From Clostridia bacterium (GTDB taxonomy: Bacteria > Bacillota > Clostridia > Christensenellales > Pumilibacteraceae): a stretch of DNA of 49,737 bases. Under the pieces are notes generated by a model. It was not told where the DNA came from and did no database searches. It worked only from the letters and a program-made list of their open reading frames with translations. Within the stretch, counting starts at the first letter, position 1. Each line of letters begins with the position of its first letter. A program made the translations under genes and the position numbers. Below are positions 17,214-36,621 of this stretch, piece by piece. The stretch covers positions 1 to 49,737 of the forward strand of contig JAFQMX010000048.1 of NCBI GenBank assembly GCA_017396125.1, read 5' to 3'.

Positions 17214-17813
17214 CTATGCAGGCAGTATTACCCCGTATCCGGGAAGTTTATCCGGATCAATGCTGTCCCAACTGCTTCCCAATGATTTAGGCGGCTTGTG
17301 TGCGTTCACGTCCCCAAATCCACTCACCAAAACAACTTTGTGCACTCTACGCTTGCAGCTGTCCACACATGGATCAAAGATTGTATTAACATAAAACTCA
17401 CGAGTAATTGAGCCACTATAAGGCTTACCATCATATGAGATTTTATATTCCCAATCTTTTATCAATGCACTCCACGAGTCGTTGTATTTAAAATTGTTAT
17501 CACAATCACTGACATAACTCGTGCGCTCCAGCATTTTTTTAAAATCCTCAATCTCTTCGTCAGAAAGCGTATAATGCCTATAGGAGCCGTCACGCAAATG
17601 AATACAAAACAGTACGTCTACAATGTTTTGCGTCGAAATCAAGGAAGTCAACGGCTTGCGTTGTGCATTTTGCACCATAGAGCAGCTAACCATCAAACCG
17701 ATTAGCACGACAAACCAAACAACCAACGCTATCGCCTTTTTCTTTGGATCGATACCTATTTGCCTACCCCTATTGCTCTCAACCCTTTCCATAATCTTTG
17801 CCTGTATTTCCAT
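17214..17813 (-). CDS. Membrane-anchored protein, fourth member of a tandem family
   Basis: 199 residues from the ATG at 17813, preceded by TAAGGAGGTAGGC. A charged ~30-residue N-terminus precedes one hydrophobic helix (IALVVWFVVLIGLMVSC). The rest is predicted to be outside the membrane. It shares with its three upstream neighbours a block of the form YTLSDEEIEDFKKMLERTSY, which in the others reads YDLNESEIQQFVDLI, HTLDEDELKQFKSWV or ITAEEREELSEIV, followed by a stretch in beta pattern. Four Cys in the C-terminal half (CDNN, CVDSC) may form disulfides. Function unknown; last gene of the operon. Confidence 0.8.
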   Translation of the reverse strand: MEIQAKIMERVESNRGRQIGIDPKKKAIALVVWFVVLIGLMVSCSMVQNAQRKPLTSLISTQNIVDVLFCIHLRDGSYRHYTLSDEEIEDFKKMLERTSYVSDCDNNFKYNDSWSALIKDWEYKISYDGKPYSGSITREFYVNTIFDPCVDSCKRRVHKVVLVSGFGDVNAHKPPKSLGSSWDSIDPDKLPGYGVILPA

Positions 17814-17815
17814 GC

Positions 17816-17880
17816 CTACCTCCTTATAGTGCAAATGTCCGCATAATCTATCTCACTACCATCGTAAAGATTGGTGCAAA
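17816..17880. repeat. 65-bp direct repeat, copy A
   Basis: Matches 18435-18499 with three mismatches. It includes the ribosome site of the 17214 gene and the spacer after the 17881 gene. Confidence 0.85.
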
Positions 17881-18429
17881 TCAATCTTGCAAAAAGAACG
17901 TTTCTTCATTGAAGTCTATTGGATATTCAATTTTTTCTCTAACACTAACAAACTTTTTTAAAGCACCGGACAAAATATACTGACCGCTAGGCGCCCCGAT
18001 ATATCCAGTTTCTTCAAAATGCTCTTGTCCTTTTCTTTCCAAGCCCAAATCACCAAATCTTATCCTAGTACCGTCAGTATACCATACGTCAAAAACCCAC
18101 CTATTTGTTCCCAGCGTCAACTCCCCTTTTTTTCTGAACCTATATTTACTGTTTTTTACCCAGCTTTTAAATTGTTTCAGCTCATCTTCATCCAACGTAT
18201 GTACGTAATGTTTCCAAATTCCGATTTCATCCTCACTCTCTTTTACTAAAACACCGTATTTATCAATTACAAAATCTACCTTTTCTATGTTTTTTAGCGG
18301 AACAATTTTGGTAAAATCCTTCTTGAACTGAGGCAAACCGGTGAATGATACAATAACAATACCTATCGCCAAAACGGCAACAACTACGAATGAAATAAGA
18401 ATTAATAAATTTTTCTTTTTCTCTTCCAT
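17881..18429 (-). CDS. Membrane-anchored protein, third member of the tandem family
   Basis: 182 residues from the ATG at 18429, with TAAGGAGGTAG upstream. The N-terminus MEEKKKNLLILISFVVVAVL is identical over its first 20 residues to the first gene of the array (19006-19536), and the C-termini also match (YPIDFNEETFFLQD against FPIEFNEETFHLQ), so these two are close paralogues. One N-terminal signal-anchor helix; the extracytoplasmic part contains HTLDEDELKQFKSWVKNSKY and WYTDGTRIRFGD. Function unknown. Confidence 0.82.
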   Translation of the reverse strand: MEEKKKNLLILISFVVVAVLAIGIVIVSFTGLPQFKKDFTKIVPLKNIEKVDFVIDKYGVLVKESEDEIGIWKHYVHTLDEDELKQFKSWVKNSKYRFRKKGELTLGTNRWVFDVWYTDGTRIRFGDLGLERKGQEHFEETGYIGAPSGQYILSGALKKFVSVREKIEYPIDFNEETFFLQD

Positions 18430-18434
18430 ATTTT

Positions 18435-18499
18435 CTACCTCCTTATGGTGCAAATGTCCGCAAAATCTATCTCACTACCATCGTTAAGATTGGTGCAAA
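18435..18499. repeat. 65-bp direct repeat, copy B
   Basis: Partner of 17816-17880, offset by 619 bases. It overlaps the last codons of the 18484 gene and the ribosome site of the 17881 gene, marking a tandem duplication edge. Confidence 0.85.
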
Positions 18500-18987
18500 A
18501 TATCCTTACTTAGATCTATCGGCACGTTTTTGGATTCAATATCGAAATTCTTCATTTCCCCATAAAAAACCACTTGCCCTTTATTAATTTCATTTCCTTG
18601 CTCGTCATATTTTTTTATATACAATTCACCAAGCTCCACGGAAGTTCCATCTGTATAGTAAATCGTATAAAAAAACATAGTATTATTAGGGGTTTGATAA
18701 AGTTCATTTTGGCTTCTTCTGAGTCTATAGCTTGAATTATTAACTATTTCGCTTAATTCCTCTCTTTCTTCAGCAGTAATTTCTCTGGTTTTTTCTACAG
18801 GAACGGTTACGTCCACGTAAAAATCATGACGTACTCTGATGTGAGTATACGTTATCATCTCGACGTTTTCGAACGAAACGTATCCACTAAGCTTTTCATT
18901 AGCATCATTTTTGCAAGCAACAGCACAAAATGCTACTACCAAAATAAGCAATATACTTGCTATAGCTCTCTTTTTTGTTGCTTTCAT
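18484..18987 (-). CDS. Small lipoprotein, second member of the tandem family
   Basis: 167 residues from the ATG at 18987, preceded by TAAGGAGGTAG. A lipoprotein signal ends in the lipobox AVAC (Cys25), so the mature protein should be tethered outside the membrane. It shares the family blocks ITAEEREELSEIVNNSSY and YYTDGTSVELGE with its neighbours but has a lipid anchor where they have a helix. Function unknown. Confidence 0.83.
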   Translation of the reverse strand: MKATKKRAIASILLILVVAFCAVACKNDANEKLSGYVSFENVEMITYTHIRVRHDFYVDVTVPVEKTREITAEEREELSEIVNNSSYRLRRSQNELYQTPNNTMFFYTIYYTDGTSVELGELYIKKYDEQGNEINKGQVVFYGEMKNFDIESKNVPIDLSKDILHQS

Positions 18988-19005
18988 TTTTCTACCTCCT
19001 TATAA

Positions 19006-19536
19006 TTAAAGCTCAAGCTCCTCTTGCAAATGGAACGTCTCTTCATTAAACTCTATAGGAAAAGCATTTATAAATTTTGCAAGCTCACCATAAAGAATAT
19101 AATCGTTTCCACCAGTGTAGGTCCTATAGTACACATTGATTTTAGAGGTATTTATGTGATAATTTCCAAAACGCACTACGGTACCGTCTTCATAAATAAC
19201 CTCGTAGCACCACGTATTAACCTTAGGCAAATTACCGTTTACAGGCATAGTAATTCTCTTGGTGTTTTTGTATTTAGTTTTTTTGATCAAATCAACAAAT
19301 TGCTGAATCTCGCTCTCGTTAAGATCATACTCATAATATCTTTGATAATTATCCGGATCCTCATGAGTCAAATCAACGTATGCGACACTCTTAATTCCTT
19401 TTACGGGAACTATTTTGGCCAGATCATGCTTTACATTAGGAATTATTCCCATACAAACAACAACGGCTGTTGTAGCCAAAACGGCAACAACTACGAATGA
19501 AATAAGAATTAGTAAATTTTTCTTTTTCTCTTCCAT
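19006..19536 (-). CDS. Membrane-anchored protein, first member of the tandem family
   Basis: 176 residues from the ATG at 19536, with TAAGGAGGTAG upstream. N-terminal signal-anchor helix identical over its first ~20 residues to the 17881 gene, followed by the family blocks YDLNESEIQQFVDLIKKTKY and VIYEDGTVVRFGN. It is first in the operon, ~180 bases from the shared promoter. Function unknown; the family looks like small extracytoplasmic beta-rich modules. Confidence 0.82.
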   Translation of the reverse strand: MEEKKKNLLILISFVVVAVLATTAVVVCMGIIPNVKHDLAKIVPVKGIKSVAYVDLTHEDPDNYQRYYEYDLNESEIQQFVDLIKKTKYKNTKRITMPVNGNLPKVNTWCYEVIYEDGTVVRFGNYHINTSKINVYYRTYTGGNDYILYGELAKFINAFPIEFNEETFHLQEELEL

Positions 19537-23671: not shown

Positions 23672-24631
23672 TTATTCAAAAAGATTACTTACAGGCTTGT
23701 CCAAGAAAATATTGTTAATTGCCTCGGCAAATATAGGCGCAACGCTTACTTCGATAAGCTTGTCGAAACGTTTTTCCTGCGGAATCTGAATGGTGTTGAG
23801 CACGTAAAGCTTCTTGATATAAGAATTCTCAAGTCTTTCGATAGCAGGACCGCTGAGTACAGGGTGAGTACAGCAAGCGTAAACTTCCTTTGCCCCGCCT
23901 ACTTCCTTGAGAGCCTTAGCACCCTGAACGATAGTTCCGGCGGTGTCGATCATATCGTCTATCATAAGGCAGGTTTTGCCCTCTACGTCGCCGATAATAT
24001 TCATAACTTCCATAACGTTAGCCTTTGGTCTGCGCTTGTCCACGATAGCGAGCGGAGCGTTGAGTTTAGCCGCCATTTGTCTGGCACGTGCAACTGAGCC
24101 TACGTCCGGCGAAACTACTACGAATTCGTCTGCCTTAACAAACGGCTCCTTTGCGATTGCACGACGAAGAACGTTCATACCCAAAAGGTGATCTACAGGA
24201 ATATCAAAGAAGCCCTGAATCTGCGCTGCGTGAAGATCCATGGTAAGCACTCTGTCCACACCTGCGCTTGTGAGCAAATCCGCAACGAGCTTGGCGGTAA
24301 TAGGCGCTCTAGGCTCTGCCTTACGGTCCTGACGAGCGTATCCGAAGTACGGAATAACTGCGGTAATTCTATCTGCAGAAGCTCTTCTGAGTGCATCTAC
24401 CATAACAAGTAATTCCATAAGATTGTCGTTTACAGGGCTGGAAGTGGACTGAATAACGAACACTTCGCTACCTCTTACGCTTTCGCCTACGTGAACGGAA
24501 ATTTCTCCGTCGCTGAACTTTCCTACCTCCATGTCGCCCAATTCCAAGTTAAGCTGCTGCGCAATCGCTTTAGCAAGCTCCGGACAGCCGTTTCCTGCGA
24601 ACAATTTGATATTATTGCCGTGCAGATTCAT
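23672..24631 (-). CDS. prs: Ribose-phosphate pyrophosphokinase
   Basis: Makes PRPP from ribose-5-phosphate and ATP, feeding nucleotide, His, Trp and NAD synthesis, including the upp and nadE reactions in this window. 319 residues from the ATG at 24631 after GGAGGAAA. Class I features: [10 protein letters not shown], the flexible loop [18 protein letters not shown] and the PRPP-binding signature DDMIDTAGT. It is downstream of glmU in the conserved firmicute glmU-prs order. Confidence 0.96.
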
Positions 24632-24689: not shown

Positions 24690-25781
24690 TTAATTTTCCT
24701 CTTTGTTTTTTGCCCAGTCAGGCTTGATAACCTGACGCGCTCGGGCTATTGCCAAAGCGTCCATAGGCACGTCGTCGGTAAGCGTACTGCCCGCCGCAAT
24801 ATACGCTCCGCTCTGCACCTCTATCGGCGCAATCAAGTTAGCGTTACTGCCCACGAAAACAGAGTCGCCCACCCTGCTACGCTTTTTGGTCTTGCCGTCG
24901 TAGTTAGCAAAAACCACTCCGCAACCGATATTGCAGTTTTGACCTATTTCCGCATCGCCCACGTAAGAAAGATGCGCAATTTTGGTCCTGCTACCCACAA
25001 CGCTGTTCTTTATTTCCACAAAATCACCGATTCGGCAATCGTCACCAACTAGCGTCTTTGGGCGGAGATAAGCAAAAGGCCCAACGGTAGTGTTCTTGCC
25101 CACGTAGCTCTCAAAAAGCTGAGATTCGGCAATATACGCCCCCTCGTCGATAATGCAACCGTCAATCATATTGCCTCTGCCTAGTTTTGCTCCGTCTTTT
25201 ACGATAGTCTTGCCCTTGAGCGTATTGTTAGACGCAACGACAACGCCCTTGCCGATAACGACGTCACAGCCGATAAAGGTGGACGTAGGGTCCTCAATTT
25301 GCACGCCACGCGACATGTGGTAGGACAAAATACGGTTTTTTAGTGCGTCACCCACCATCGCCGCCTGCTTAAAGCTGAACGCGGTCAAGAAATCTTCTTC
25401 GTCAAAATATTGGTGGTTTTCGGTATAAATCTTTTCGCAAGAAAGCAAAAACTGCGTGCGGAAAACGTAACCGCGAGTGAGTTTTAGCACGTTGTTGTCA
25501 CTCTGCTCCAAGCAACAAACCGCGTCAAGCACGGTTTTGCGTGTAATCAGCGGGGTGTCGGAGTACAAAATTACTGTAAAGTCACTTTCGGTATTAACGT
25601 ACGGCTTGACCAAAAGAGGCAACGCCACGTTGTCCGAATAATTGACCACGCTATACGAGCTTTCGCCCAAGCTCAACGCCACCCAATCGAGCATGGTCTT
25701 GCCCAAAATCTCAATGGTCGAGGTGTCGCCCATGGACGGATAAGACACTTTTAATATAATACCGCTGATTTTCTCTTTCAT
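24690..25781 (-). CDS. glmU: GlmU-like protein with degenerate uridylyltransferase domain and intact-looking acetyltransferase domain
   Basis: 363 residues against ~455 for standard GlmU. The C-terminal half (from ~155) is a left-handed beta-helix acetyltransferase with the family residues in place: [17 protein letters not shown], catalytic His near 269 in [12 protein letters not shown], and [10 protein letters not shown]. The N-terminal domain is recognisable (ISGIIL... and [14 protein letters not shown]) but shortened, and the signature LAAGxGTRMxSxxPK loop that binds UTP is replaced by [18 protein letters not shown]. Uridylyl transfer is therefore unlikely, while acetylation of glucosamine-1-phosphate is still plausible. 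It sits directly before prs. The promoter is so close that the message would be leaderless or nearly so, and no ribosome site is visible. Confidence 0.85.
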
Positions 25782-26281: not shown

Positions 26282-29200
26282 TTATCTTTCGTCAGAGCCA
26301 GAAGACTCTACGTAGTCATAAACTATCTTTCCGCTGCAACCGCTGTGCCAATTCTGGTCGTAGTTGTTTTCACTGCCAACCGCCCAAGTAGCGATGGTAT
26401 GATAGAACGAAGTTTCTACGTTAACGTCCACAGCGGTACCGCTGAACACTGCATGGTCAAGATACGTAGCCTTATGGATAGTTACGGACTTGAGCGAAAC
26501 GCAATCCTCAAACGCATATTGCTCGATGTTAACAACCGATGCAGGAATCACAACGTTCTTAAGCATCTTACACCCGCTAAACGCATACTCCTCGATTTTT
26601 GCAATCGACGAAGGTATGGTTACGCTTTCGAGCGCGTCACAACCATAGAACGCGTACTTGGAAATTGCGTCTACGCCCTCAGCAATAACAGCGGTCTTGA
26701 GCGACTTACAATTGATAAACGCCTTAACCCACAAATCTTCGTCGCTACACAAGCCCTTTGGAACGGTGATAGACTTAAGTCCACTGTTTTCGAATACGCC
26801 CTCGTCCATAAATGCGAGCGAATCCGGCAAGGTTATGGTCTCGAGTTTTGGACAATCCTTAAAGATATATTTACCCAAGGTGATAAGTCCGCTAGGGAGA
26901 TTTACCTGGCTGAGTTCCTTACAGCCCATAAATACGCTGTGTACCGAGGTGGAATAACTGCTTGCCTTGATGCCGATCGAAAGGTCAATCCAACCGATGT
27001 GGTATACCGACTCAGGAACGGTTATGCTCTTAAGTCCACTGTAAGCAAACGCAGAAGATTTGATGGTAGTGAGTGATTCAGGCAAAGTAATGCTCTCAAG
27101 CGAGGTACAGCCGTAGAACATTTCCTCGTTAATCTCAAGGAAGTTGTCCGACAAGGTCACGTTTTTGAGCGAGGTACAGCCGTAGAACAAGCCTTTTCCG
27201 ATAGTAACAACGGTGCTAGGAATAACGACGGTTTCGAGATCAACCATTTCAGCAAATGCGTAGTTTCCAATTGTCTCAAGCGTGCTAGGCAATACGAGAG
27301 TCTTAACGCCTCTCAAACCTCTGAGAGAGTTTGATTCCATTTTCTTAACGCCTTCAGGAATCACCAATTCTTCAGGACCTGTTGCTCCCGCAAGAGGAGT
27401 ATAGTAGGTTTCAAAAGACTTTTCGCCGATTTCAATATCATACTCCTGTCCCGCAGGATAAGCAATCATATATCCAGAAGTAATGCTGTAAATCGCGCCG
27501 TCAATCAACTCATACTCGGTATTTCCGCTGTCTATGATAAACTCTTTGAGATTATAACAGTTTCCAAACGCATAATGGTGAATATAGGTTACGCTTGCAG
27601 GAATTACCATATACTCGATTCCGCTACCGTAGAATGCACCGGTATCGATATGCGTCAAAACCTCAGGAAGAGTAAACGACTTGAGGCTTGCGCAGTTGAA
27701 GAACGCTTCGGTCTTTACGCGTGTAATATTGTTTGCTCCACTAACCTTTTCAAGCTTGGTGCAGTTATAGAACATTTTATAAGTAAGCTCCGCCATGTTG
27801 CCAGGAAGAGTTACGGTAGTAAGCTCCGTACAATTTTCGAATACCATAGACGACAAACTGCCTACTCCGCTCAAAATTTCTGCTTTTTGGAGATATCTAC
27901 AGTTAGCAAACACACTACTACCTATTATGCCGAAGTTATTGTCAATGTAAACTTCGGTAAACGCAGTATTTTCAAACGCTGAAGCACCAATGTAATACAT
28001 AGACGCAGGAAGAACGAAATTTCCTTCTCCCACGTAACCTACGTAGGTTATCTTGGAAAGGTTGATACAGTTTTTGAATACTTCGTTACCGATAGTAGTA
28101 GTGCTTGTCGAAAGAACTACTTCCGTAAGATTTGCACAGTTAGCAAACGTTCCTACCGCGTATCCATCAAAGGACTGTAGGTTACCCACACTACCGTTTG
28201 TCATACTGATATATACTACGTTGTTAGGAATAACCACCCTACTGATTGCGGTGTTTTCGAAAGTCCATTTTCCAAGATAAGATATAACGTCCGGAAGGTT
28301 AAGCTGAGTAATGCTGGTACAATTTCTGAACATTGCGTCACCAAGGAAGGTAAGCGTAGTTTTCTCTTCAAACTTGATGTCAGTAAGATTTGCACAGCTT
28401 TCGAAGATTCCTTCGCCCAATTCCTCAAAGGAGTTAGGGAGAGTTACCGTAGTGAACTGAGTGTTCTTAAACGCATAATTACCCACGATCTTTACACCGT
28501 TCAAGTCGTATTCACGCACGCCCGAATTCATAAACGCTCTGTCGCCGATACGCTCTACGTTTACAATGGTATCGTTTCTGGTAAACACTACCTTAGTAAG
28601 ACTGGTTGCGCCCTCAAACAATGATTCAGGAAGTTCAGTGATATTGCCAGGAATAGTGAACACTCCGTTGCTTTCGGAGCAAAGGCTGGTACAGCCCTTG
28701 AACGCGCCGATACCAAACTTATTGAATCCGCTGTGTAGATTTACGGTAGTAAGAGCGGTACAGCCTGCAAACATATAGTCAGGCATTTCCGTAATATCAA
28801 TAGGAAGATCGAAGGTCTTGAGCGAAGTGCAATTAGCAAACATATGATCGCCGTACGCAACGGTTCTGTTAGGGAGCGTAATGCTCACAAGCGAAGAACA
28901 GTTGGAGAATACTCCGTTACCCATTTCAAAGAGTGCACTGCTAGGCGCAAATACTACTTCTTTAAGCGAATAGCAGTTTTGGAACGCATAGTCGCCAATT
29001 CTGGTTACGGATGCAGGAATAACAACCTTGGTAATATTTATTTGGTTAGCAAAAGCCTTGTCGCTGATTACGGTTACGCCCTCTGGAATAATGATACCTC
29101 TGCCGTCATCGGTAGCCTCTTTGTAGGAGAAGTAAATGGTAGTTCCACTAGGACTAACGATATTTGGCAAATCAGCGGAAACGATATACGAGGTGTTCTC

Positions 29201-32200
29201 AGGAGAAATATTTATCTCCTTGAGTCCAACTACGCCGTTAAGCGCAAGGTCAAGTCCGGCAATTACCGATTCGGAAACGGTAATGGACGTAAGGTTTGCG
29301 CAACCAAAGAAAATATCCTTTTGGAGCACGATGTTCTTGGTACTCTCTGGAAACTCAAAGGAAGAAATTGCGCTATAACGGAACGCTGCGTATCCGATAT
29401 ATTCGAGATTGCTACCGTCCTCAAAGGTAATAGTCGCAAGGTATCTAGCTCCGTCAAACGATTGATCTCCGATATAGGTTACCGAAGCAGGAATTTCGAG
29501 GCTCTCGATGTTTGCGCCTTGGAATGCGTAATTGCCTATATTAGTAAGCTGACTGCCCTGCTCAAACTCCATACTTATGATTCCCGCATACTGGAACGCG
29601 TTGTTTCCAATCTTTTTTATCGAAGCAGGAATCTTGATGGTAGCAAGGTTACGGCAGTTCTGGAACATATTAGGTCCAAGCTCTTCGATAACGCTTCCCT
29701 CTTCAAAAATAACTTTTTCGAGGTTTGCACACTGATAGAACGTATTTGCTTTACCGGAGAAATCATCTGTCGCAAATACTTGCAAGCTCTTTGGCAAGTA
29801 AATTTCCTTGAGTCTACTGCCCTGGAATGCCGAATGTCCGATAGTTCTGAGTCTAGATCCCTCGGCAAAGGTAACTTTTTCGATATTAGTATTTCTAAAT
29901 ACGCATTGTGCGATAGAAATGAGTCTAGCCGGGAAATGAATTTCCTTAAGGCTATAGCAATTTACAAACGGAGACTGATCGCTAAGTCCCGCATCAAGCG
30001 TGAGGTTGAGTGCGTCGTTGCCTTCTTGGAAGATAACTCTGGAAAGCTTAGGGCAGTCCTCAAATGCCATGTACTTAACAGCCTCTACGGTATTAGGTAT
30101 TACTACCTCTACCAAGTTGGTACAGTTGTCAAAGAGCAAGGTGGAAACTTCCTTTATACCATGTGGCAAGCTTACCTTTTCTACCGAGTAGCAATCTTGG
30201 AATATTTTGGATCCCAGCGTACAGGTTGCGGTAACCTCACTAAAATCTACAATCTTGATATGCAAGCTGTATTGGAACGCAAACGACCATACGAAAGTTA
30301 CGGTGCTTGGAACGGTAACCTTACCGTTGTTACCCTTGTTTGCTCTAGGACAGAATATAAGTTCGACAGCTTCCCCTTTCGTACTTTTGCTATAAAGAAC
30401 GCCATCGATAGTTGCGTAATTTGCATTTCCTGTAGCAACCTCAATAGTTTCGAGCGAGATACAGGTCATAAAGGTTGCGCTGTTCTTTCCGGAGCTCTTA
30501 AGCTCTTTCAAGGTAGAAGGCAACGAAATGTACTTGAGGCTTTCGCAGTTAGCAAACGCGAGATCGCCAATAGTAAGAGTTCCCTCTGGTATAGTTATTT
30601 CTTTTAATCCGCTATAACGGAAGACAGCTTCGCCCAATTCAGTCACTCTATTAGGAAGAATCAAGCTTTGCAATTTGTACAATTTATAGAACGCTCTATC
30701 GTTGATGACCAGCGATTTAGTAGTCGTAGCACCGGACTCAATTTCTGCAAACACGATTTCCTTGAGCATGATACAGTCACGGAAAGCGTCGGATCCGATA
30801 GTCTGAATATTCTTACTGATGACAACCTTGGTCAAATTAGGCTTTTCGCAGAATACACCGTTAGGCAACTCTATTACCGAATCAGGCATTACGTACGTTC
30901 CGCTCTTATGCGAAGGGAAGAATATCAACATGGTCTTATCCTTATTAAAGAGAACCTCGTCCTCGGTTACATAATAAGGATTGTTTGGATGAACGTTGAT
31001 AACAGCAACCTTTTCACCAAACGCGTCGCCGATATTATTGATGATGGTTTCTTCTCCAATAGTAACCTCGGTTACGTCCGAACTATAACCACCGTCTGCA
31101 TTCAGGAAGCCGAACGCTCCTCTCTTGATTCTTACTTCGCCTACGCTATTGAGCGTAACCTTGCAAAGATTATTCCATCCTCCAAACGCATGATAGTCAA
31201 CGAATACGAGGTTTGCAGGAAGAACGACTTCTGTAGGCGGATTAACGTTGTTACCGCTACTGCCTGCCCAGAAAGCGTGATCGTAGATGTAAAGTTCAGG
31301 ATCGTCCTTTTTACCGGTAAATATGAGCTCTTCAAGATACAAAATTCTTCTGAACGCCCACTTTTCAATTTTTTGTACGTAACCTGGAATGGTAATCTTG
31401 GTAAGCTTGTAGCAATACTGGAACGCGTCCTCTCCGATGACGGTAACTCCCTCCGGAATTGTATATGCACCATCTGTAGCGCCGTTGTTGCCGCGCAATC
31501 CTTCCGGTGCGTAGTACGCCTTGTTTCCGCCGTCAACGCAAATGATACCGTCCTTCCAGGTGTAAGTTTCACAGCCTGCCTCGACGGTCATGGTCTCAAG
31601 ATTTGCGCACCACTTGAACGCAAATACAGGGAAATACGACAAGCGCTTAGGGAAATTAATATATTTAAGGTTAGGACTCTTGTAGAAAGCATCCTCGCCT
31701 ATGGTAAGGTCAGTAGCCTCGAAATCTGTGTTTTCTGCGATGAAATCAAATCCGAGCTGTGGCTCTTCAGGGGTAGGAAGGAACACGAGTTTTTCCAAGC
31801 CTTGATTCTCGTAAAATGCAGATGCAGCGATAGTGCTTACACTGCTAGGAAGATGCAACTCAACGAGATTGCTGTAATATTTGAATACGTTTACAGGAAT
31901 ATTCTTTACTCCGTACGGTGCTATATAAACGCCGTGTTTGTTCTCTGGATAGTACTTAAGCTCGATACCGGTGTAAGGGTTAAAGTAATACAAAACGCCT
32001 TCGTGCGAATCGTAAAGTCTTTCGTGGTTACCCTCTACGGTATAGATGTTAACCGCCTCGAGCTTGGTACAGCCCATAAACGCCGAACCTGCCTGCTTAC
32101 CGCCGCTACCCATTTCGATAAGGGATACGGTATCAGGAATATTTATGGTAACGAGATGGTCGCAATACTGGAACGCAGAGCCCTCTACCGTGGTTACAGG

Positions 32201-34672
32201 CAAGCTATTGTAGGTTACAGGAATAGTAACTACATCGGTGTAAGTAATAAATACGCCCTTGCTTACAGAATAAGCCTTTCCTTCGTTGATGGAGGTAAAG
32301 GTCAACACCTCTGCCCAGTAAGCATAAAGCTTAATCGGCGAAGTAAACATCCAGTCCTCGAGCGAAACACCGTGGTTGTCGGTCAATTTAACTCCGCCAC
32401 CATTCGACTCGGTGTACCAACCTACGAACACCTTGATTACCTCGGCGTGAGTAGGAACAGGTATAGTAAACGCCTTGCCGTAGGTTACCTTGGTGGTATT
32501 CTGCGACAAATTTCCACCTGCAAGCTCAAGCTCCAAGGTGTAGATTGCAGGAGCCCATTGTGCGTAAAGCACGAGGTTGGAGGCATCAACAAGAGTCTTT
32601 TCGGTGTACTCGTCGCCATTTTCATATGCCGACCAGTAATCAAGCGCGTAGCCTGCTACTGCGGTAATGTCCTCCGGCAAATTGAGCTTATCGCCCTGAG
32701 CCAAGTAAATTGCGTCATATTCCTTGAGTGCGGACAAGGAATGGTTATACATAAGCGAAATCTTGTAGATATCGATCTTGATTTCTTCCCAAGTCGACTG
32801 ATTGTTATCTTCGTCAAAGTAGCTTACCATAACGCTGTGCTCGCCCTCTGATTCGAAGGAAAGCGCAAACGAATTCACGTTGCCGATCTTCTGCTCGCTT
32901 CCGCCGTCTACCTTAACGGCATAACCGCTTGCTCCGTAAACATGGTGCCACGAAACTATACCGTCGCGGTACGAAACTTTGCCGGTGAGCTCAGTCGCAA
33001 TATCCACCGCGTCGCCGTAAATGGAATCTGTCGTGCCGTCTTTGCTAACTGATTTTACATAAGCCGTAATACCGTTGGAAATATCGATATCTTCTGGCAA
33101 GGTAAAATAAGTTTCGTTTGCATCGTACTCTACGTCGTTGATTTTTACCTTATAACTAACTGCTCCCTCTACCTTGTTCCAAGTAAGCGCGCCCTTTTCA
33201 AAGGTAACTTTTTCCGGAGCCGCGATAGTAGTCTTGTTGTAAACGAACTCTACCGTTTCAGAATCGTTATAACCCTTTGCCATAGCAGTAACGGTTACCC
33301 AAATAGTGCCAGCATTGTAGAACTTAAAGCTTTCGCTTCTCGGATCGTTAACTATGTAAGAGCCTACTCTCTTGAGCGAGAATTTATATTTTTCCGCGTT
33401 TTCAACCTCATCCCAAACGATTTGCTCGGTTGCCTCGTCAACGCGCACGTTTTGCGGAGCATCCAAAGTTCTTATGAGCCAGAATTCGTCGGAAACAGAT
33501 GAAATATATCCGTCTGCGCTAGCAGTTACCACAAATTTAATTCCCTCTGCTCTCATTCCACAGTCGCCAAAGTCGTAGTAATTATTAGCGCCGAGATCAA
33601 TAACCTCATTCATATGCGCTTCGTTACCACACTCAATTGCAAGAGAGTAGTTGGTCGCATTAGGAACCTTATTAAAGGTGAGTACGGTACCGTTTGCTTC
33701 AAACAAGCAAACTTTGCTCAAGCCCTTATTTTTATAGTACACGGTGCTGAAATTACCGTTATACACAACTTCTACGGTATATTCACCTGCAGGTTGCTCG
33801 GAGAAATCATAGTCATAGCTGATTTGACTGGTGCTGAAGAATATACTGCTACCGCCCTTGCGCGTAATAGTAAGGCTATATTCTCTACCAACACCTTTAG
33901 TGGTCCAACTAACGCCGTTTTCGTTAACCGAAACCGCTACTCCTTCACTTTCGTATACAGCAAACAAAGTTATATTTTGGCTAAGAACCTGACCGTTATA
34001 CTGACAAGTAAGCTTGTTTTTGTCGTTATAATCGCTCATCCACCAGCCGATAAATCCGCTTTTGCTACCTCTTGGCAAATTCTCAAGTACGCCCGCAGCA
34101 TTGGTGAGAATCGGATCAAGCTCGGTCTCTCCGTCCATAAGCGTTGCAGTAAAGGTGTACTCGATTTCCGGAAGGAACTTTGCGTACAAGGTTTTAGTGC
34201 CGGTAACTGCTTCGGAAAAGTCGTACGGAGTCTTTAATCCCGAATCCTCATACCATCCAAGAAATATCTCGCCTGTCTTGGTAGGATCTTCCGGTCTTTG
34301 CAAAGTGCTACCGTGCTGTACCGTCGCCGGGCTGACGTCGCTACCACCGTTAGTATTAAAGGTAACGGTGTACTTTTTCAATTCCCAACTTGCCTTGAGA
34401 GTGATACTCTTCTTTATCTTGGTGCTCTCAAAGTCAAAAACGTTGCCCTTGTCGTCCAACCAACCTGCAAAATCGTAGTTTTCGAGGGTTGGGTCAGCAG
34501 GCTTTTCTAAATGCTTGCCTTCTTTGACCTTAACCGCCTCAACAACGCTGCCGCCGTTGGAGTCGAAGGTTACAGTAAACACTTTGTCGCTACAAGCTGC
34601 CATTACGCTACCAAGAAGTGCGAGCACTACTACGAGCATAAGGCTAACGATAAGTTTACGTTTCTGTGCCAT
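26282..34672 (-). CDS. Giant BspA-like leucine-rich-repeat lipoprotein, 2,796 residues
   Basis: The largest gene in the window. A lipoprotein signal ends in VMAAC (Cys27). Next come two InlB B-type repeats (about 31-165; FDSNGGSVVEAVKVKEGK and FNTNGGSDVSPATVQHG), fibronectin-III-like and Ig-like segments (about 240-640), further B-like repeats to about 800, and then a very long array of LRR_5 repeats (about 830-2770) of the xxIxxxAFxxCxxLxxIxIP type. The end is short and hydrophilic, without an LPxTG motif or S-layer domain, so the lipid is the only visible anchor. It is probably a surface adhesin or carbohydrate- or host-protein-binding structure. The start follows AAGGAGAAG. The promoter is ~165 bases upstream, giving a long leader. 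Repeat-rich sequences of this size are prone to assembly collapse. Confidence 0.93.
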   Translation of the reverse strand: MAQKRKLIVSLMLVVVLALLGSVMAACSDKVFTVTFDSNGGSVVEAVKVKEGKHLEKPADPTLENYDFAGWLDDKGNVFDFESTKIKKSITLKASWELKKYTVTFNTNGGSDVSPATVQHGSTLQRPEDPTKTGEIFLGWYEDSGLKTPYDFSEAVTGTKTLYAKFLPEIEYTFTATLMDGETELDPILTNAAGVLENLPRGSKSGFIGWWMSDYNDKNKLTCQYNGQVLSQNITLFAVYESEGVAVSVNENGVSWTTKGVGREYSLTITRKGGSSIFFSTSQISYDYDFSEQPAGEYTVEVVYNGNFSTVYYKNKGLSKVCLFEANGTVLTFNKVPNATNYSLAIECGNEAHMNEVIDLGANNYYDFGDCGMRAEGIKFVVTASADGYISSVSDEFWLIRTLDAPQNVRVDEATEQIVWDEVENAEKYKFSLKRVGSYIVNDPRSESFKFYNAGTIWVTVTAMAKGYNDSETVEFVYNKTTIAAPEKVTFEKGALTWNKVEGAVSYKVKINDVEYDANETYFTLPEDIDISNGITAYVKSVSKDGTTDSIYGDAVDIATELTGKVSYRDGIVSWHHVYGASGYAVKVDGGSEQKIGNVNSFALSFESEGEHSVMVSYFDEDNNQSTWEEIKIDIYKISLMYNHSLSALKEYDAIYLAQGDKLNLPEDITAVAGYALDYWSAYENGDEYTEKTLVDASNLVLYAQWAPAIYTLELELAGGNLSQNTTKVTYGKAFTIPVPTHAEVIKVFVGWYTESNGGGVKLTDNHGVSLEDWMFTSPIKLYAYWAEVLTFTSINEGKAYSVSKGVFITYTDVVTIPVTYNSLPVTTVEGSAFQYCDHLVTINIPDTVSLIEMGSGGKQAGSAFMGCTKLEAVNIYTVEGNHERLYDSHEGVLYYFNPYTGIELKYYPENKHGVYIAPYGVKNIPVNVFKYYSNLVELHLPSSVSTIAASAFYENQGLEKLVFLPTPEEPQLGFDFIAENTDFEATDLTIGEDAFYKSPNLKYINFPKRLSYFPVFAFKWCANLETMTVEAGCETYTWKDGIICVDGGNKAYYAPEGLRGNNGATDGAYTIPEGVTVIGEDAFQYCYKLTKITIPGYVQKIEKWAFRRILYLEELIFTGKKDDPELYIYDHAFWAGSSGNNVNPPTEVVLPANLVFVDYHAFGGWNNLCKVTLNSVGEVRIKRGAFGFLNADGGYSSDVTEVTIGEETIINNIGDAFGEKVAVINVHPNNPYYVTEDEVLFNKDKTMLIFFPSHKSGTYVMPDSVIELPNGVFCEKPNLTKVVISKNIQTIGSDAFRDCIMLKEIVFAEIESGATTTKSLVINDRAFYKLYKLQSLILPNRVTELGEAVFRYSGLKEITIPEGTLTIGDLAFANCESLKYISLPSTLKELKSSGKNSATFMTCISLETIEVATGNANYATIDGVLYSKSTKGEAVELIFCPRANKGNNGKVTVPSTVTFVWSFAFQYSLHIKIVDFSEVTATCTLGSKIFQDCYSVEKVSLPHGIKEVSTLLFDNCTNLVEVVIPNTVEAVKYMAFEDCPKLSRVIFQEGNDALNLTLDAGLSDQSPFVNCYSLKEIHFPARLISIAQCVFRNTNIEKVTFAEGSRLRTIGHSAFQGSRLKEIYLPKSLQVFATDDFSGKANTFYQCANLEKVIFEEGSVIEELGPNMFQNCRNLATIKIPASIKKIGNNAFQYAGIISMEFEQGSQLTNIGNYAFQGANIESLEIPASVTYIGDQSFDGARYLATITFEDGSNLEYIGYAAFRYSAISSFEFPESTKNIVLQKDIFFGCANLTSITVSESVIAGLDLALNGVVGLKEINISPENTSYIVSADLPNIVSPSGTTIYFSYKEATDDGRGIIIPEGVTVISDKAFANQINITKVVIPASVTRIGDYAFQNCYSLKEVVFAPSSALFEMGNGVFSNCSSLVSITLPNRTVAYGDHMFANCTSLKTFDLPIDITEMPDYMFAGCTALTTVNLHSGFNKFGIGAFKGCTSLCSESNGVFTIPGNITELPESLFEGATSLTKVVFTRNDTIVNVERIGDRAFMNSGVREYDLNGVKIVGNYAFKNTQFTTVTLPNSFEELGEGIFESCANLTDIKFEEKTTLTFLGDAMFRNCTSITQLNLPDVISYLGKWTFENTAISRVVIPNNVVYISMTNGSVGNLQSFDGYAVGTFANCANLTEVVLSTSTTTIGNEVFKNCINLSKITYVGYVGEGNFVLPASMYYIGASAFENTAFTEVYIDNNFGIIGSSVFANCRYLQKAEILSGVGSLSSMVFENCTELTTVTLPGNMAELTYKMFYNCTKLEKVSGANNITRVKTEAFFNCASLKSFTLPEVLTHIDTGAFYGSGIEYMVIPASVTYIHHYAFGNCYNLKEFIIDSGNTEYELIDGAIYSITSGYMIAYPAGQEYDIEIGEKSFETYYTPLAGATGPEELVIPEGVKKMESNSLRGLRGVKTLVLPSTLETIGNYAFAEMVDLETVVIPSTVVTIGKGLFYGCTSLKNVTLSDNFLEINEEMFYGCTSLESITLPESLTTIKSSAFAYSGLKSITVPESVYHIGWIDLSIGIKASSYSTSVHSVFMGCKELSQVNLPSGLITLGKYIFKDCPKLETITLPDSLAFMDEGVFENSGLKSITVPKGLCSDEDLWVKAFINCKSLKTAVIAEGVDAISKYAFYGCDALESVTIPSSIAKIEEYAFSGCKMLKNVVIPASVVNIEQYAFEDCVSLKSVTIHKATYLDHAVFSGTAVDVNVETSFYHTIATWAVGSENNYDQNWHSGCSGKIVYDYVESSGSDER

Positions 34673-35010: not shown

Positions 35011-36621
35011 TTATTCCTTCTCTACCTTTGGAACGTAAACCCAAATGGTAACTACACCGTTTACGTAGTGCCAGTATTTTCCGTCGTAGTCATCCTCGGT
35101 TCTATTAAGCGGTGGCGTAGTTTCGCTGTAGCCGTATGCAGTTGCAGACAGCAAATGCTGGTTGTTAGTCTTTACCGAAGTTGCTTTCCACTCGGCAACA
35201 GTTCCCATAAAGTACACCTTTTTGAAATTGATACAGCCAAAAAATGCACTTTCTTCAACGGTTTCAAGCGTTTCAGGAATAACCAAATCAGACATTTCCG
35301 CGCATGCTTCAAACGCGCTCTTGCCGATAGTTACGAGTCCACTAGGCAAAGTCACGTTTCTAAGAAGCGTGCATTCTTTAAAGAGTTCATCCTCAAGCTT
35401 GGTAACGTTGGCGTTGATTTCTACAGTTGCCAAATTGAGACAAGACGAGAACGCCCCTTTTCCGAGAGCGGTTACGGAGCTAGGAATTCTTACGCTAGTC
35501 AAGCTACTGCAAAGCGAGAATGCCTCTTCGCCGATGCTGGTTACGGAGTTAGGAATGGTTAAGGAAGTCATTCCGTTACAGCCCTTGAAGGCGTTCTTTC
35601 CAATAGAAGTAATGAAGTTAGGAATTTCTACCTGATTAAGAGAAATACAGAACGAATACATTCCTTCACTCAAAGAGTTGATGCCAGTAGGAACTCTAAT
35701 TTCTCTTAGCGAAGTGCAGTAGGAGAAAGCATTTTTTCCGATACTGGTTACGGTAACAGGAACGTTAAAGGAAGTAACCTTTGCGCACCATGCAAACGCG
35801 TCGTCACCAATAGTTTGTACGCTGTTACCCATCAAAATTTGAGTCATATTTTTACAACCGTAAAAGGCGCTGTCACCAATGGTGGTTACACCGTTGTTAA
35901 GCTTTACGGAAACAAGGTTTTCACAAGAAGAAAAAGCGCTTTCACCAATAACAGTAGCTTTGGTCACTTCAACGGAGGTAAGAGAAGCCGGAACGGAAAA
36001 CTGTCCGCCAAAAATATACTCAAAATATGCGTTTTGCTCACTGTCTAACTTATTTCCGAGGAACGGAACTCTGATGGACTGAAGCTGATTACATCCGTTA
36101 AACGCACCGCTACCAATGCTGGTTACGTTGTTAGGAACAAGCATCGAGGTAATCTTACTCCTTGCAAACGCGATTTCGTCGATAGTGGTTACCGAAAGAG
36201 GAAGGTTGACGGTTTCGCCCTCGTAGCCCGTAAACGCGCTCTTTCCAATAGTAGTTATCGTCGAACTGGTAGCGAATTCAATTTTCGCCGTGCATTTATT
36301 AAACGCCTCTACACCGATAGAAGTTATGGTGTTAGGAATAATGATTTTGGTCAAATTAGTGCAGTTAGCAAACGCATTGTCACCAATTGCTATTACCGGT
36401 TTCTTTTTGTAAACGTCGGCAATTTCGATAATAGCACTGCTTGCGCTACCAATACCAACTACGGTGTACGCCTGTCCGTCGGCAGTCTTTTGATACTTGA
36501 GTCCTTTAGTTCCAACCTGTGGACCGTCGTCTCCACCACCTCCGCAGGCAACAAGTATCGAAAAAGATAATACTATCGCCAAAATTAAAATAAAACCTAA
36601 CCTTATTTTTGCCTTTTTCAT
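35011..36621 (-). CDS. BspA-like leucine-rich-repeat lipoprotein, 536 residues
   Basis: Lipoprotein signal ending in ILVAC (Cys26) followed by a flexible GGGGDDGP linker. Then comes a run of about eighteen LRR_5 repeats (IGxxAFxxCxxLTxIxIPxxV), closing with the cap YFMGTVAEWKATSVKTNN and a C-terminal YDGKYWHYVNGVVTIWVY seen in many clostridial BspA-like proteins. A weak G-rich ribosome site precedes the ATG. It is in the same orientation as the giant LRR gene but with separate signals. Likely a surface binding protein; the ligand is unknown. Confidence 0.92.
   Translation of the reverse strand: MKKAKIRLGFILILAIVLSFSILVACGGGGDDGPQVGTKGLKYQKTADGQAYTVVGIGSASSAIIEIADVYKKKPVIAIGDNAFANCTNLTKIIIPNTITSIGVEAFNKCTAKIEFATSSTITTIGKSAFTGYEGETVNLPLSVTTIDEIAFARSKITSMLVPNNVTSIGSGAFNGCNQLQSIRVPFLGNKLDSEQNAYFEYIFGGQFSVPASLTSVEVTKATVIGESAFSSCENLVSVKLNNGVTTIGDSAFYGCKNMTQILMGNSVQTIGDDAFAWCAKVTSFNVPVTVTSIGKNAFSYCTSLREIRVPTGINSLSEGMYSFCISLNQVEIPNFITSIGKNAFKGCNGMTSLTIPNSVTSIGEEAFSLCSSLTSVRIPSSVTALGKGAFSSCLNLATVEINANVTKLEDELFKECTLLRNVTLPSGLVTIGKSAFEACAEMSDLVIPETLETVEESAFFGCINFKKVYFMGTVAEWKATSVKTNNQHLLSATAYGYSETTPPLNRTEDDYDGKYWHYVNGVVTIWVYVPKVEKE

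Follow-up and report, generated by a model that had tools for sequence, protein, structure and literature searches.

A Shortened glmU Gene Beside prs

The stretch of DNA analyzed here (the window), 49,737 nucleotides from a Clostridia bacterium, carries at 24690–25781 on the minus strand a glmU orthologue of 363 amino acids which, from profile, genome and locus comparisons and an AlphaFold2 model, appears to encode an acetyltransferase-only GlmU with a pseudo-uridylyltransferase domain. In bacteria, UDP-GlcNAc is generally taken to come from GlmU, the standard bifunctional enzyme, which is regarded as essential and as a drug target. Its conserved downstream neighbor is prs (ribose-phosphate pyrophosphokinase; 23672–24631, minus strand), so that the glmU-prs order, which an earlier sequence-only reading of the window had described as kept, is indeed maintained, and prs lies beside glmU in nearly all loci compared. 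A related family has two more conserved genes after glmU-prs, which from the canonical locus we take to be pth-mfd. Around glmU in the window we identified by eye a tadA-like deaminase, an M14-type peptidase, RlmH and prs; inspection of these neighbors revealed no partner gene adjoining glmU.

Several other genes of the window and its genome were noted in passing. Directly upstream of glmU (26282–34672, minus strand) lies a gene for a BspA-type leucine-rich repeat lipoprotein of 2796 amino acids containing 14 LRR_5 stretches as well as Listeria-Bacteroides repeats, and a second LRR-like lipoprotein is encoded at 35011–36621. Small lipoprotein-like genes stand in a row at 17214–19536 (minus strand), two of which (17881–18429 and 19006–19536) are paralogues with almost identical N-termini. 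Elsewhere in the genome (L001, G000:C1), inspection by eye revealed phosphonate genes: an apparent phosphonopyruvate decarboxylase followed by a fused nucleotidyltransferase/PEP mutase-like protein.

The NCBIfam GlmU models align the short GlmU solely from profile position ~212 to the end, with scores of 298.8 and 275.2 bits that fall under both curated equivalog cut-offs (450 and 366.85 bits, respectively), and a Pfam search matched hexapeptide repeats and no nucleotidyltransferase domain. The genome assembly (1.11 Mb in 66 contigs, 67.6% complete) contains a single GlmU. A second GlmU was sought and ruled out, none being found in this assembly or in near-complete relatives; since the gene is the syntenic glmU, the earlier argument that a sole GlmU of this kind calls for another uridylyltransferase is upheld.

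A Complete Acetyltransferase Half and a Reduced N-Terminal Domain

Alignments place the reduced N-terminal (uridylyltransferase) domain at residues 1–134 (25380–25781, minus strand). Residues 11–26 (25704–25751, minus strand) occupy the place of the GxGTRMxSxxPK nucleotide-binding loop, in agreement with the sequence-only reading, which had the GxGTRM-type UTP-binding loop replaced; its estimate of an N-terminal domain short by some 90 residues also fits, the protein being 93 residues below a full-length GlmU of the order (363 versus 456 amino acids in G037). An alignment with 15 full-length GlmUs from this order shows that the short GlmU is missing GxGxRM, K25, Q76, G81-T82, the G140-E154-N169 segment, YYLTD and N227. 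The sole uridylyltransferase-site motif position left is D105, within a family-invariant DTPL motif. The retention of this position and of the core strands shows that the domain is reduced, not absent. Family-invariant residues within it are G27, W33, L72, D75 (the D105 position), T76, P77, L78, R103, G104 and F131, and new lineage motifs, KMTRGYVFKT and EEDFxTA, are conserved in the short forms.

A long helix (residues 137–157; 25311–25373, minus strand), seen in the AlphaFold2 model, links this domain to the left-handed beta-helix acetyltransferase domain (residues 158–350; 24732–25310, minus strand), which was delimited from invariant or nearly invariant alignment columns. The acetyltransferase half had been called complete, and in two alignments R240, K258, H270, Y273, N284, N293-Y294, K299 and R347 are invariant or nearly so; these occupy the positions of E. 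coli R333, K351, H363, Y366, N377, N386-Y387, K392 and R440. The AlphaFold2 model (pLDDT 93.6) superposes 346 of 363 residues on Streptococcus pneumoniae GlmU (Z 37.4, rmsd 2.5), the fold of the reduced domain being homology-informed in that the input alignment included full-length GlmUs. The reduced domain is under purifying selection, with omega values of 0.05–0.18 in 10 of 11 close pairs and 0.41 in the remaining one, mostly like those of the acetyltransferase half.

The protein resembles bifunctional GlmU (TIGR01173/PRK14354; PDB 4ac3, 1hm0) in its orthologous locus, whole-length structural match and complete acetyltransferase half, and differs from it in a uridylyltransferase half of ~134 residues that lacks the substrate-binding motifs. 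One could argue from the purifying selection, the confident predicted fold and the preserved D105 position that the short GlmU is still bifunctional, its reduced domain binding the substrates in a new way. We regard this as very improbable: the nucleotide-binding loop, catalytic lysine, uracil-binding Gln, sugar-binding segment and N227 metal-ligand region are all lost, and in many relatives within the order the domain is missing entirely. Judged by its sequence, the short GlmU acts almost certainly as an acetyltransferase whose N-terminal domain is dead but conserved. The description as a pseudoenzyme, offered as an option by the sequence-only reading, thus suits the N-terminal domain and not the rest of the protein, whose acetyltransferase half is intact.

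Distribution in the Family and the Order

We sampled 36 other genomes, representing 17 further genera, from the window's family (f1) of uncultured gut-type clostridia, and every one has a short glmU at 40–65% identity; three copies are fragmentary (G002, G004 and G014), and an intact GlmU was found in none of the 36. The 30 sequences aligned (the window's and 29 others) start at almost one place, and every aligned member lacks all uridylyltransferase substrate-binding motifs except the D105 position. The fragmented, 67.6% complete assembly of the window's genome might suggest an ordinary pseudogene or an assembly artefact, and an error at 25700–25781 hiding an intact N-terminus, or relatives with a normal GlmU at the same place, had been named as grounds for abandoning the idea. 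Neither is borne out: an artefact is ruled out by the same short N-terminus in the independent assemblies of the 36 other genomes, and the family-wide architecture and the low omega values, together with an intact reading frame and a conserved neighbor, refute the pseudogene or artefact reading to the point where we give it practically no credence.

An order-wide survey of 151 genomes, all at least 85% complete except the window's own, revealed several forms of GlmU. Some families have a full-length protein. A short form with a pseudo-domain occurs in f1, f19, f14, f8, f21, f25, f29, f3 and others, an acetyltransferase-only form (~200–240 amino acids) occurs in f6, f9, f20, f28 and parts of f10, f11 and f15, and in further families GlmU was not detected. 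The window's gene shares with the acetyltransferase-only form a full beta-helix domain and, by sequence, the lack of a working N-terminal domain, while being the syntenic glmU. Fusions of the acetyltransferase with GlmM occur in different families; four frames of 597–671 amino acids were read, two in each domain order (L327 and L351 in G108 and G196; L328 and L329 in G115 and G038), and these fusions support the remaining GlmU half acting directly after GlmM. Together with the intact catalytic residues and the acetyltransferase-only relatives, they make a dedicated acetyltransferase the best supported of the options that the sequence-only reading had listed.

Other arrangements were also observed. 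In f28, whose genomes measure 0.8–1.1 Mb, the pseudo-domain and a partial beta-helix form a separate gene for 254–282 amino acids beside an acetyltransferase-only gene (L346 and L348; G141 and G127), and most of these f28 genomes yielded no GalU. G048 encodes a stand-alone GlmU-type uridylyltransferase domain of 259 amino acids with GTGHA (L376), and a GlmU acetyltransferase was not found in this genome. The cultured Ruminiclostridium papyrosolvens C7 has a 390-amino-acid GlmU with a degenerate N-terminal domain (L163:5995–7164). The uridylyltransferase half of GlmU has thus been dismantled in graded steps in a large clade of uncultured clostridia, with several apparent replacements, providing a natural series for the disassembly of a fused enzyme; lineages appear to differ in the uridylyltransferase replacement that they have used.

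A GalU-Like Protein as the Candidate Replacement

MurB, MurD, MurE, MurG, MraY and a GlmM are encoded in the closest relative, G016, as judged by motifs and similarity, and this organism therefore needs UDP-GlcNAc. The window's genome also encodes a 300-amino-acid RmlA-like protein (G000:C4), which was considered as the replacement and rejected, since it was not found in G002, G005, G006 and G012. A PF00483 protein is present in 61 of 61 f1 genomes, and in three of them (G005, G006 and G012; 87–90% complete) PF00483 and PF12804 match only IspDF and a GalU-like protein, which is homologous to GalU over its length.

Alignment of 86 GalU sequences, 23 of them from f1 genomes, revealed changes that accompany the state of GlmU. 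The GLGHA motif is canonical in all 17 GalUs from genomes with a full-length GlmU, while its L is replaced by S, T, N, M or G in 65 of 68 from genomes with a degenerate one. When columns were ranked by how well they separate these two groups, column 111 came first (L in 17/17 against S41, T15, N6, M2, G1 and L3) and column 204 second (I/V in 17/17 against S40, A13, C5, P3, T2, N1 and I/V in 4); such a ranking is less affected by relatedness than raw counts because all columns share one phylogeny. Q105, G110, D133, E191 and K192 are kept in every GalU aligned, including all 68 from genomes with a degenerate GlmU, and D134 in 67 of these 68.

Both changed positions point to the sugar pocket. An analysis of YngB has V204 contacting glucose and G110, beside L111, contacting uridine (PMC7961091). 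By motif alignment GalU L111 corresponds to GlmU T82, and position 204 aligns with GlmU N169. At the L111 position GlmU has T or S; Mycobacterium tuberculosis GlmU has Thr89 there, whose counterpart in human AGX1 is Asn223 (PMC9105790), an Asn where the variant GalUs have S, T or N. Canonical UGPases are described as having a pocket too small to take GlcNAc-1-P or its N-acetyl group (PMC3888555). The f1 proteins share homology and catalytic residues with the UTP–glucose-1-phosphate uridylyltransferases GalU, GtaB and YngB (TIGR01099) and differ from them at sugar-pocket positions 111 and 204. All seven f1 GalUs scored (220–288 bits) are also under the curated GalU cut-off of 326.8 bits, the window's own at 220.5 and the six others at 242–288, while all 11 scored from genomes with an intact GlmU exceed it (372–396 bits); in other variant families the scores are mixed relative to the cut-off. 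The GalU of the window's genome is divergent, with GIPDVI replacing QLTDAI.

These observations suggest a model in which GlmM supplies GlcN-1-P, which the beta-helix half of the short GlmU would acetylate to GlcNAc-1-P, the N-terminal domain, its UTP site lost, persisting as a conserved, structurally retained pseudo-domain. UDP-GlcNAc would then be formed by the GalU-like protein, with its catalytic machinery kept and a sugar pocket predicted to be larger and more polar (L111 to S/T/N, I/V204 to S/A/C). From the sequence comparisons, the best explanation is that the short GlmU serves solely as a GlcN-1-P acetyltransferase and that the lineage's GalU-like protein carries out uridylyltransfer; as the supplier of the missing step this protein is the best supported, with a probability of about 0.7. 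We infer that the protein uses GlcNAc-1-P in the cell, and the change in GalU may have allowed the GlmU domain to decay. The pseudo-domain could also serve as a docking or regulatory module, for example recruiting the GalU-like enzyme for handover of GlcNAc-1-P, an idea that we hold to be rather unlikely; if true, GlmU would have been rebuilt as two proteins with the dead domain as adaptor.

Other Possible Sources of UDP-GlcNAc

A third, unrecognized nucleotidyltransferase might instead make UDP-GlcNAc in f1, the GalU-like protein having been altered for another sugar such as GalNAc-1-P or GlcN-1-P. Pocket residues do not define the sugar, and other families of the order with lost GlmU domains do offer other enzymes, including the stand-alone domain of G048. 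Many genomes in which GlmU is absent or acetyltransferase-only encode a 300-amino-acid nucleotidyltransferase with the motif KPxLVVLAAGxGSRYGGLKQ (L143, L147, L149, L383 and L390), which occurs in f4, f9, f11 and f17, has no specific NCBIfam model and is a candidate alternative UDP-GlcNAc pyrophosphorylase. It was found in none of 10 f1 genomes searched, however, and G005, G006 and G012 have no PF00483 or PF12804 proteins beyond IspDF and GalU. UAP1-type PF01704 matched none of 61 f1 genomes, which is weak evidence in that control genomes gave no match either. We consider a third enzyme unlikely.

In Firmicutes, GlmR (YvcK) has been proven to act as an accessory UTP:GlcNAc-1-P uridyltransferase, and the proteins of Listeria, Staphylococcus aureus and Bacillus subtilis make UDP-GlcNAc in vitro (PMC10128056). 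It is a known bacterial source of UDP-GlcNAc other than GlmU, from a protein family distinct from both GlmU and GalU. Were it promoted to the main UDP-GlcNAc enzyme, the acetyltransferase role of the short GlmU would hold. A motif search of one genome, covering ~1.08 of the 1.3 Mb (~83%) of G016, detected no GlmR motif. The G016 cluster murB-PHP-whiA-dnaE, presumably the usual site of glmR, contains neither rapZ nor glmR. A role for GlmR would also leave the changed GalU pocket unexplained, and we judge it improbable.

Scope of the GalU–GlmU Association

On the GalU tree there are two changes in GlmU state, three in the motif and two independent pairs, so that the association amounts essentially to one event, with possibly another in f29. 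With two to three state changes it has no statistical force as repeated evolution, and counting genomes as independent support was therefore dropped. Exceptions occur within the order: G110 combines a degenerate GlmU with a fully canonical GalU, and no other uridylyltransferase candidate was found there; the GalU of G088 is half-changed; that of G100 is canonical at both 111 and 204; and G057 has a canonical GalU and carries the alternative KPxLVVLAAGxGSRYGGLKQ enzyme. Neither protein was found in G047 (86% complete), and GalU is absent from several acetyltransferase-only genomes (f15, f28 and part of f20); searches of G047, much of f20, f28 and parts of f15 yielded no replacement candidate. 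A degenerate GlmU paired with a canonical GalU is also seen outside the order, in R. papyrosolvens and G208; the alternative enzyme occurs there in G207 and G209. We therefore propose the GalU model for f1 and its relatives.

The proposed pathway recalls the eukaryotic one, in which GNA1 and UAP1/AGX1 likewise place acetyltransfer and uridylyltransfer on two proteins; unlike there, the f1 genomes gave no UAP1 homologue in the PF01704 search, where control genomes also gave no match, and GlcN-1-P presumably remains the compound that is acetylated. Searches of the literature for truncated or pseudo-GlmU proteins returned nothing on point. The annotation "glmU present" does not imply both activities, and the comparison of GalU sequences provides a specific two-residue hypothesis for converting a glucose enzyme into a GlcNAc enzyme.
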